Shown here in pieces: positions 50,321 through 52,907 of a DNA stretch of 64,000 nt (position 1 is its first letter; every line of letters begins with the position of its first letter). Source of the stretch: a bacterium (GTDB taxonomy: Bacteria > UBA8248); contig JAJEJD010000022.1 in NCBI GenBank assembly GCA_022828125.1, positions 1 to 64,000 of the forward strand, written 5' to 3'. The translations under genes were made by a program, and so were the position numbers. The notes beneath the pieces were generated by a model that did no database searches, had not been told where the DNA came from, and saw only the letters and a program-made list of their open reading frames with translations.

Positions 50321-50563
50321 ATGTCGAAAGAAGTGACGGTTTATTCATCCACGTTCTGAGCGCCGTGCAAGGCGGTGAAAGAGTTTCTTTCCCATCACGG
50401 CGTGGCGTATACGGAAAAACTCGTCGATCAGGACGAAGAGGCTCTCGAAGAACTCTTCCAGCGGGCGAGCATGCGGGCGACGCCCGTGATTTTCATCGGC
50501 GAGGAGAAAGTGGTCGGCTTCGACAGGGCGAAGCTCCAGGAACTTTTGGGGCTCGCCGCGTGA
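50321..50563 (+). CDS. glutaredoxin selenoprotein (in-frame UGA at codon 13)
   Basis: An 80-residue glutaredoxin-like protein when the TGA at 50357-50359 is read as Sec: TVYSSTF-Sec-APCKAVKEFL, where homologues have CxxC at the same place. The rest is complete: the HHGVAYTEKLVDQDEEA middle strand and the RATPVIFIGEEKVVGFD segment with the cis-Pro TP, ending at TGA 50561-50563. The ATG at 50321 gives the standard start. A SECIS-like hairpin follows the UGA. If UGA were a stop, only 12 residues would be made and the conserved remainder would be unexplained. Its stop overlaps the GTG of the next gene. Confidence 0.85.
50361..50402 (+). promoter_or_regulatory. SECIS-like hairpin of the glutaredoxin selenoprotein
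   Basis: CGCCGTG (50361-50367) pairs perfectly with CACGGCG (50396-50402). An apical stem GAAAG/CTTTC (50377-50381, 50387-50391) closes an AGTTT loop with G as its second base, 22 nt from the UGA. This is the expected geometry for a SelB-binding element. Confidence 0.7.
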
Positions 50564-50859
50564 GCGGGGAGCCGAGAACGCTCGCCTGTCCCGGCTGAGG
50601 GCAACGCATACCCGTCCCGTGGGACGCGAAGCCGCGAGACCTGATCGATTGCGGAAACTGAGCAGGGGTCAGGTTCCGCCTGGGCGAGGCGGAAGGAGCG
50701 GAGGTTCTCACCGTCGTGCAGATGGTCTCATGCCCGCTCTGCGGTGAACGCGTCCCGGTGGATGAGGATACCCCTGAAGGTTCCGTCCTGGAGCACGACG
50801 GAAAAACGCTTCGCCTCGAAAAAGAGTTCGGCGCGTTCATCCTGGAGCCTGTGGAATAG
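50560..50859 (+). CDS. zinc-ribbon-like protein with two in-frame UGA codons (candidate double selenoprotein)
   Basis: A 99-residue frame starting GTG at 50560, overlapping the glutaredoxin stop (GTGA), and ending TAG at 50857-50859. It has in-frame TGAs at 50596-50598 and 50659-50661. Read as Sec it gives C10-P-G-Sec13-GQRIPV, then IDC31-G-N-Sec34-AGVRFRL, and a third knuckle C58-P-L-C61-GERVPV, ending KEFGAFILEPVE. Each UGA falls at the second Cys position of a CxxC knuckle of the familiar CPxCG-type ribbon. Both UGAs have strong downstream hairpins. Function unknown; metal binding or selenol redox chemistry is inferred. The alternative is a decayed zinc-ribbon gene, but two same-type changes with SECIS-like stems argue against that. 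Confidence 0.72.
50613..50626 (+). promoter_or_regulatory. SECIS-like hairpin after the first UGA of the zinc-ribbon gene
   Basis: Stem CGTCC/GGACG (50613-50617, 50622-50626) with a CGTG loop; G is the second loop base and the loop starts 19 nt after the UGA. It is the shortest of the four hairpins. Confidence 0.5.
50674..50694 (+). promoter_or_regulatory. SECIS-like hairpin after the second UGA of the zinc-ribbon gene
   Basis: A perfect 7-bp stem TTCCGCC/GGCGGAA (50674-50680, 50688-50694) with a TGGGCGA loop; G is the second loop base, 19 nt after the UGA. This fits the bacterial SECIS pattern well. Confidence 0.65.
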
Positions 50860-50992: not shown

Positions 50993-51385
50993 ATGGCTTC
51001 TCAACCCCAAACCGCCGTCCATCCGAAACGCGACGATACATTGAATCGGGATTTGCTCGCGCAGTTGAAGGAGTTTGAGAAAACTCCCGAGGAGGAGCGG
51101 TGGCCTGGCGCAACGTGGCCGAAACCACAAGCATTTCGGGATGCGGAGATTTTCATCCACAAACTGCCGCTGGATTCGATTCCCATGCCAAACATGGGGC
51201 TGGCGGACGACGGGGAAGTCAATTTTCTATGGAAAGAAAATGGTGTTCACGTCGATCTGGGATTTTACGGGACGGGCGCCTACTCCTATTTTGCGCGCGG
51301 AAAATCTGGGAATAAAATTTATGAAGAGGATGCTCTCGTATCGGATGATTTTCCCGGTGAAATTCTAGCATTGTTCAAGAACTGA
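50993..51385 (+). CDS. hypothetical protein, first of an AT-rich pair
   Basis: A 130-residue soluble protein of unknown function. It has a helical N-terminal half (DLLAQLKEFEKTPEEERWPG) and a beta-rich C-terminal half with SIPMPNMGLADDGEVNFLWKE, VHVDLGFYGTGAYSYFARG and an acidic end. The ATG at 50993 follows AAAGGAG. Codon use is clearly less GC-rich than the surroundings. The pattern of a small 'dG-inclW' beta protein followed by a second unknown ORF recalls paired unknown genes in cyanobacteria and other phyla, possibly toxin-antitoxin-like; that is speculation. Confidence 0.65.
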   Translation: MASQPQTAVHPKRDDTLNRDLLAQLKEFEKTPEEERWPGATWPKPQAFRDAEIFIHKLPLDSIPMPNMGLADDGEVNFLWKENGVHVDLGFYGTGAYSYFARGKSGNKIYEEDALVSDDFPGEILALFKN

Positions 51386-51392
51386 CAAGACG

Positions 51393-51896
51393 TTGCCGTC
51401 CTCGACATTGCACCTCGATGAGTCGAAAAGCGCCGCGCCTGGGATTTCTCCCGGAATCGTTGAAGACGAGGAGTTTCTGATTCGGGAAATGTTCAATCCG
51501 CAACATATCAACGAAGAAGGGAAAGTTATCGAAAGAGCAATTTCGGTGAATGAACTGGTTGCAGACGGATTTTCCGTTCATAGAATAAAGTATGTTTCAA
51601 AGGAATTCGTGGAAAAATCCATACAGACGAGATTGTCGAGAAAGAGGAAAGAACCCTGGACGAGTGAGGGCGTGTCCAGATTAAAGACTCTGGCGGTTCG
51701 CCAGATTTTTCTGGAAGACGAAAGGGCGTTTGTAGTAGTTGATACGGCCACGGAAGACAATCCCGGACATGCGAGCATCTATTTCACCACGCCTCAAAAA
51801 GGCAAGGCGTATGCGCGGGAGGCGCGTGGTTTCCTTCTGCCGCTCCTTCAAGACAGAATGACCCTTGACGAGGCGTATGACGGCGTGACCGGTTAG
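51393..51896 (+). CDS. hypothetical protein, second of an AT-rich pair
   Basis: A 167-residue protein of unknown function, starting TTG at 51393, seven bases after the first ORF's stop. An in-frame TAG at 51366 rules out a longer start. It has FLIREMFNPQHINEEGK, then AISVNELVADGFSVHR, a Lys/Arg-rich middle and an AFVVVDTATEDNPGHASIYFTTP segment. No family is recognised with confidence. Composition is AT-rich like its partner, so the pair may have been acquired together. Confidence 0.6.
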   Translation: MPSSTLHLDESKSAAPGISPGIVEDEEFLIREMFNPQHINEEGKVIERAISVNELVADGFSVHRIKYVSKEFVEKSIQTRLSRKRKEPWTSEGVSRLKTLAVRQIFLEDERAFVVVDTATEDNPGHASIYFTTPQKGKAYAREARGFLLPLLQDRMTLDEAYDGVTG

Positions 51897-51950: not shown

Positions 51951-52907
51951 GTGGCTGAGCGGGATTTCGACATCATCATCATAGGCGCGGGGCCGGCCGG
52001 GCTGACGGCGGGGCTTTATACGGCGCGCTCGAAACTGAACGTGGTCTGCTATGAAAGGCTCGCCCCGGGCGGCGAGATTTTGAACACCGAGCACGTGGAG
52101 GACTACCCGGGCTTCGAGTTGGTCGGCGGCCAGGAGCTGGCGGCCAAGTTCACCGATCACGCCATGAAGTTCGGCCTCAAGATCGAGATGGAAGAAGTCT
52201 CGGAAGTGAGGAAGGACGGGGATGATTTCATCGTCGTCACCGACATGGGCGAGCGCCGCTGCGGGGCGGTGATCTACACCCCCGGCGGCTATCCGAGAAA
52301 ACTCGGAATCCCGGGCGAGGAGAAATACGCCGGCAAGGGCGTGAGCTACTGCGCGCTTTGCGACGGCGCGTTCTTTCAGGATGAGGTCATCACCGTCGTG
52401 GGCGGCGGGAACAGCGCCGTGGAAGAGGGACAGTTCCTCACGAAGTTCGGCACGAAGGTCTACATCATCCACCGCCGCGATCAGTTCCGCGCCCATGCGG
52501 TTTTGGTGGACAAGATTCGCGAGAACCCGAAAGTCGAGATCATCACCGACTACGTGGCCGAGGAGGTGGTGGGCGACGAGAAGGAGATGAAGAAGCTGCG
52601 CATCAAAAACGTGAAGACCGGAGAGATGAAAGAACTCGACGCCACGGGCCTGTTCGTCTTCATCGGTTTTATTCCGAACACGGATTTGATAAAAGATCAT
52701 GTGGAAAAAGACGATGTAGGCTTCATCCTCACGGACCAGAACATGGAGACCAACGTTCCGGGCCTGTTCGTGGCCGGCGACTGCAGAAGCCAGTTGATCC
52801 GCCAGATCACCAACGCGTCGGGCGATGCGACGACGGCGGCGGTGGCGGCGGAGAAATATCTCGAAGCCCAGGAAGAGGCCAAGAAGGCCGCCGCGGCGGC
52901 TTCCTAG
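51951..52907 (+). CDS. trxB: thioredoxin-disulfide reductase
   Basis: A 318-residue flavoenzyme of the low-molecular-weight thioredoxin reductase type. FAD motif IIGAGPAGLTAGLYTARSK, redox centre SYCALCDGAFF (Cys pair near residues 136-139), NADPH motif VVGGGNSAVEEG with HRRDQFRA, and the C-terminal FVAGDC motif. CALC replaces the commoner CATC. The start is GTG at 51951 after GGAGATT. Lying just after the Sec-glutaredoxin and Sec-ribbon genes, it is a plausible electron source for selenoprotein partners. Confidence 0.93.
   Translation: MAERDFDIIIIGAGPAGLTAGLYTARSKLNVVCYERLAPGGEILNTEHVEDYPGFELVGGQELAAKFTDHAMKFGLKIEMEEVSEVRKDGDDFIVVTDMGERRCGAVIYTPGGYPRKLGIPGEEKYAGKGVSYCALCDGAFFQDEVITVVGGGNSAVEEGQFLTKFGTKVYIIHRRDQFRAHAVLVDKIRENPKVEIITDYVAEEVVGDEKEMKKLRIKNVKTGEMKELDATGLFVFIGFIPNTDLIKDHVEKDDVGFILTDQNMETNVPGLFVAGDCRSQLIRQITNASGDATTAAVAAEKYLEAQEEAKKAAAAAS

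Follow-up and report, generated by a model that had tools for sequence, protein, structure and literature searches.

A LysW-like double zinc-ribbon protein with two predicted selenocysteines, encoded next to a selenocysteine glutaredoxin in an uncultured bacterium

Selenocysteine (Sec) is mostly found in the active sites of thiol oxidoreductases, or at Mo, W and Ni centers. LysW/ArgW proteins are carriers with a conserved acidic C-terminus, the final Glu of which carries the substrate. They have a single-ribbon fold with CPxC...CPxC knuckles (PF21344, NF041070; PDB 3VPB chain E), to which the protein described here is similar. Unlike LysW/ArgW, it appears to consist of two tandem ribbons with Sec at two ligand positions, it contains the motifs CPN[C/U]AG..RL and [FY]G[AST][FWY], it lacks the carrier C-terminus and its gene has redox genes as neighbors.

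Zinc ribbons with Sec have been reported for the FmdB family, as CxxU in two GOS metagenome sequences (PMC2398784) and as UxxU, with two Sec, in a catalog of 2026 (PMC13188914). These Sec forms of FmdB are also small putative zinc ribbons with Sec in CxxC knuckles, but they rest on two sequences, and the consulted portions of both papers report no operon with a Sec-glutaredoxin. The dual CXXC motif small (seleno)protein NF041197 (OS_HP3) is likewise small with CxxC motifs and sometimes contains Sec; however, the catalog lists its Sec in an RxU motif (PMC13188914). With respect to gene order, the closest system is that of Clostridium pasteurianum, in which the gene of the YruB/NrdH-like redoxin Cp9 adjoins that of the thioredoxin reductase Cp34, and Cp9 reduces a peroxiredoxin (PMC3720550). 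The redoxin studied here differs from Cp9 in having Sec (UAPC) and a ribbon rather than a peroxiredoxin as the partner gene.

The first-pass annotation of this DNA stated that no family of this form had been described. This holds for the LysW-like form, for which the May 2026 catalog of 119 prokaryotic selenoprotein families (PMC13188914) has no entry, and the main text of the deep-Sep paper does not mention zinc ribbons. It does not hold for Sec in zinc ribbons as such, since the FmdB forms CxxU and UxxU had already been reported (PMC2398784, PMC13188914). Judged by its sequence, the ribbon qualifies as a new family of selenoproteins rather than as a categorically new system, and the FmdB ribbons are its nearest precedent. 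Some of the MAG proteins may already be annotated with U in GenBank.

The window, i.e., the whole stretch of DNA that was analyzed, comprises 64,000 nucleotides of contig JAJEJD010000022.1. The ribbon gene is located on the plus strand at 50560..50859 and encodes 99 amino acids between a GTG start and a TAG stop (VSGEPRTLACPGUGQRIPVPWDAKPRDLIDCGNUAGVRFRLGEAEGAEVLTVVQMVSCPLCGERVPVDEDTPEGSVLEHDGKTLRLEKEFGAFILEPVE). Translation confirmed the frame, length and stop given in the first-pass annotation, as well as the TGA codons at positions 13 (CPGU, 50596..50598, plus strand) and 34 (CGNU-AG, 50659..50661, plus strand). In total seven frames of the window, counted from start to stop on both strands, have 99 codons with exactly two TGA and no TAA or TAG; only in the ribbon frame are both TGAs placed in CxxU. 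Because of its homology and the selection acting on it, the ribbon frame is far beyond chance. Standard annotation would truncate this protein of uncultured bacteria at codon 12.

The genome encodes the machinery for Sec insertion, the absence of which the first-pass annotation had named as an argument against a selenoprotein. The scores for selA, selB, selD and tRNA-Sec (selC) were 575.9, 384.5, 334.9 and 75.9 bits, respectively, and those of selA, selB and tRNA-Sec were above the curated thresholds. The selD of this genome (L039) itself contains Sec (GGUGSK). No stop codon is more frequent in the window than TGA, which terminates 22 of the 43 non-overlapping long ORFs; therefore, reassignment of the UGA codon was ruled out.

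A protein search of 61 genomes identified homologs of the ribbon in four further genomes of the genus, nine others of the family and one unrelated genome. The relatives that carry it are Nitrospinota MAGs of the same phylum, a Candidatus Tectomicrobia MAG and Firmicutes (Clostridia MAGs); among the plasmids and viral contigs searched, no ribbon homolog was found. Internal stops in the full-length matches are limited to TGA, of which there are zero, one or two. All full-length members align with either Cys or UGA at both UGA columns, and Sec was never found at C10, C31, C58 or C61. Homologs with either residue at these two columns, which the first-pass annotation had proposed to look for, thus exist in all combinations, and they read on beyond the first UGA. 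Across 16 loci, which include related and therefore not independent sequences, UGA and Cys were exchanged at identical columns: both sites are UGA in L001, L002, L003, L005, L014 and L015, only the second is UGA in L004 and L017, only the first in L009, L010 and L012, and both are Cys in the remaining loci, including the four Firmicutes-type loci L036, L037, L065 and L067. On a tree built from concatenated glutaredoxin and ribbon sequences with the two Sec columns masked, parsimony required a minimum of five state changes at site 1 and three at site 2. As the all-Cys homologs retain the same operon, the ribbon does not depend on Sec for its function. The ribbon locus is missing in G003, G006 and G013. 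Of these genomes, G003 lacks trxB as well, and in G006 and G013 trxB is located close to the end of a contig; most likely, all three are assembly gaps.

Purifying selection continues beyond both UGAs. Within the genus, it was confined to the ribbon frame, with dN/dS values of 0.14 between the two UGAs and 0.19 beyond the second, so the lack of conservation past the UGA that would speak against the Sec reading was not observed. Taken with the Sec machinery, the ribbon gene almost certainly encodes a genuine two-selenocysteine protein.

According to the insertion-signal description in the catalog, a bacterial SECIS (bSECIS) element is a downstream hairpin with a G in the first two loop positions and a spacing of 16–37 nt (PMC13188914). 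In the ribbon gene, SECIS-like hairpin 1 is located at 50613..50626 on the plus strand (CGUCC-CGUG-GGACG, G at loop position 2) and hairpin 2 at 50674..50694 on the same strand (UUCCGCCU-GGGCG-AGGCGGAA). Their loops start 19 and 20 nt after the respective UGAs, in agreement with the spacing of 19 nt noted earlier. Isolated hairpin 1 has a folding energy of −5.7 kcal/mol, which is weak in this genus and short of the limit of −7.5 kcal/mol of the bSECIS model. An Rfam search over the ribbon region gave no match.

Hairpins were counted when the loop started 16–22 nt after the codon, contained 3–6 nt with a G in the first two bases and was closed by at least five contiguous pairs. With these limits, which had been narrowed after a broad first pass and are in this respect a weakness of the counts, a hairpin was present at 17 of 17 ribbon UGA sites, related and hence not independent, versus 4.55 expected from codon-usage-weighted synonymous shuffles, and none of 4000 shuffles reached 17. 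The corresponding number for the Cys sites was 4 of 15, versus 2.73 expected, and 17% of the other codons in the same genes passed the limits. When one site per lineage was kept, hairpins were found at 8/8 UGA sites. Indeed, the hairpins reported in the first-pass annotation track UGA and not Cys. One of the four hairpin-bearing Cys sites is site 1 of L004, a recent exchange inside the UGA-bearing genus. The broad limits (loop start 15–30 nt, loops up to 9 nt) were rejected; they gave no separation of UGA and Cys, as hairpins were then found at most GC-rich sites, including Cys ones. The hairpins at the 17 UGA sites agree with the bSECIS description, with loop starts at 16–21 nt. The stems of different lineages are unrelated while the distance is nearly identical, e.g., CCCUUC-GGUU-GAAGGG in L015 versus hairpin 2 of the window.

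The best Pfam match of the window protein is the LysW ribbon PF21344 (29.3 bits, cut-off 27), which was matched in 19 of 20 ribbon members. No NCBIfam model was passed at its cut-off by the window protein: NF041070 (LysW/ArgW carrier) scored 43.9 bits (cut-off 75), TIGR02605 (FmdB) 10.0 bits (cut-off 31.3) and NF041197 13.3 bits (cut-off 40). The AlphaFold2 model is all-beta with a pLDDT of 89.1, and its sole credible match in the PDB is LysW (3vpb_E; TM 0.75 on target, E 0.057, rmsd 1.2 Å over 47 columns). The same chain is found by the family profile at the sequence level, via the second half of the profile. A tandem of two LysW-like beta-ribbons is the best reading of the protein. Thus the earlier description as zinc-ribbon-like was supported, but the protein is no orphan: it is a LysW-like double ribbon, the gene of which adjoins those of a Sec-glutaredoxin and TrxB.

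In the N-terminal ribbon all four ligand positions (C10, C/U13, C31 and C/U34) are Cys or Sec in 20 of 20 members, and the Sec is always the second residue of the knuckle. In this putative metal-gripping site, selenium is predicted to take the place of two of the four sulfur atoms. In rubredoxin-like knuckles in general, the second Cys is the ligand that lies more exposed. In the C-terminal ribbon (C58, C61, followed by HDG) the site is only partly retained; its final two positions vary (CC, HC, HD, LC or HR), and two Firmicutes no longer have the second Cys. As the four ligands are kept while the second ribbon drifts, the site of the first ribbon is the conserved one.

Directly upstream lies the gene of a Cp9/YruB-like Sec-glutaredoxin (50321..50563, plus strand), the TGA stop of which overlaps the GTG start of the ribbon by 4 nt (GTGA, 50560–50563). 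Based on this arrangement, both proteins are predicted to be made in one operon. The glutaredoxin matched PF00462 with 56.8 bits (cut-off 22.9); its best NCBIfam match was TIGR02196 (78.6, cut-off 88.55), with Cp9/YruB as the nearest family. Its Sec UGA (50357..50359, plus strand), the third of this gene pair and one that the first-pass annotation did not report, lies in the active site TFUAPCKAVKEF and is followed by a SECIS hairpin at 50375..50393 on the plus strand (GUGAAAG-AGUUU-CUUUCCC). This hairpin shows covariation across relatives, with two-sided changes at three of seven pairs and 97.4% of cells paired, which is above slid controls and most shuffled controls. The order of Sec-glutaredoxin before ribbon was found in three phylum-level groups and, among the loci with enough flanking sequence, at all but L036. 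In the Firmicutes-type loci L065 and L067 the Sec-glutaredoxin has a UGSC motif, the first ribbon is all-Cys, the second ribbon is without its second Cys, and a gene for a YitT-like membrane protein comes after the ribbon.

Downstream of the ribbon, a thioredoxin reductase TrxB with a CALC motif is encoded at 51951..52907 on the plus strand and is kept in the phylum. It was found on the same strand at a distance of 0.1–4.5 kb at all 13 testable in-phylum loci, i.e., those whose contig reaches far enough. In G001 and G005 trxB directly follows the ribbon, and in G009, where the ribbon is absent, it directly follows the Sec-glutaredoxin. No TrxB was seen downstream in the unrelated genome G048, where the contigs end 1.1–1.6 kb after the ribbon. 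Two hypothetical ORFs without a Pfam match lie between ribbon and trxB in the window (50993–51896) and also in G006. No glutathione synthetase above the cut-off was found in 18 genomes of the phylum, which favors TrxB as the electron donor. Elsewhere in the window, at about 2519–2921 on the minus strand (TGA at 2750), there is a second likely selenoprotein of a known kind, a thioredoxin-like protein with a signal peptide, a WUGTC motif and a SECIS-like hairpin of −6.0 kcal/mol.

Sec coding, fold family, gene order and selection can be read from the sequence data; for metal binding, electron flow and the oxidant or substrate of the ribbon, we infer the following. A chain from TrxB via the Sec-glutaredoxin to the ribbon is the simplest reading of the gene neighborhood, and the ribbon is probably part of an unusual electron relay built on selenium. 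We therefore lean toward a two-Sec tandem ribbon with a reducible site in a TrxB/Sec-glutaredoxin relay as the best explanation; the specific route from NADPH via TrxB and the Sec-glutaredoxin to the CxxU/CxxU ribbon has about an even chance of being correct. With NADPH as the electron source, TrxB would reduce the Sec-glutaredoxin (UAPC), and this in turn would keep both CxxU pairs of the ribbon in the reduced state. The ribbon selenolates might attack an oxidant or electrophile and form a selenenylsulfide, which would probably free or loosen bound Zn or Fe, and the oxidized ribbon would be reset by the glutaredoxin. The ribbon would thus offer a metal or redox site that is rich in selenolate and can be reduced, and the selenol chemistry proposed in the first-pass annotation is plausible. 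More tentatively, it might be a natural S2Se2 Zn or Fe site in which the second-position Sec ligands make up a reversible redox switch or a reductase, with the Sec-redoxin chain resetting it.

Alternatively, the N-terminal S2Se2 site could use the affinity of its selenolates to bind Hg, Cd, Cu, Ag or arsenite, and glutaredoxin and TrxB would strip or reset it. The invariant Cys or Sec at its four positions is consistent with this, as is the link of many Sec proteins in the catalog to Hg and As resistance (PMC13188914); however, no gene for metal resistance, a transporter or a metalloregulator is located beside the ribbon in the window, and the conserved neighbor is trxB rather than a mer or ars gene, so metal handling is considered unlikely.

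The upkeep of all four ligand positions could equally mean a structural metal site. The site would then mainly be a structural zinc (or rubredoxin-like iron) site in which Sec is tolerated or mildly favored, and the ribbon an adaptor or electron carrier. Such a role agrees with the independent swapping of Sec and Cys at the two sites and with the fold of Zn-binding LysW, but hairpins beyond the synonymous expectation at every UGA site would be costly for a neutral swap, and the restriction of Sec to the second knuckle positions and the fact that a Sec redoxin and TrxB are constantly linked to the ribbon also argue against it; this explanation is regarded as rather improbable. That the gene does not encode a selenoprotein, with the UGAs being true stops, assembly errors, signs of a decaying gene or part of a reassigned code, is very improbable given the identical UGAs in independent MAGs, the selection past them, the Sec machinery and the use of UGA as a normal stop. 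A role as a LysW/ArgW-type amino-group carrier was rejected as extremely improbable, since the LysW domain, although the top fold match, is barely above the Pfam cut-off, NF041070 is far from its own, the C-termini vary freely in the alignment without a conserved terminal Glu tail, and no LysX/ArgX/LysZ-type gene was found among the neighbors scanned.

The ribbon adds a family that is missing from the newest selenoprotein catalog, and its locus is a case of a redoxin and a partner that both contain Sec. In the first ribbon, two of four thiolates appear to have been exchanged for selenolates, repeatedly and independently for each position, which offers a natural test of reactive versus structural Cys knuckles in zinc ribbons. 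If the reading as an S2Se2 metal site with a redox switch or reductase is true, the ribbon would represent a class of selenoproteins in which Sec residues serve as paired metal ligands and redox couples at once.
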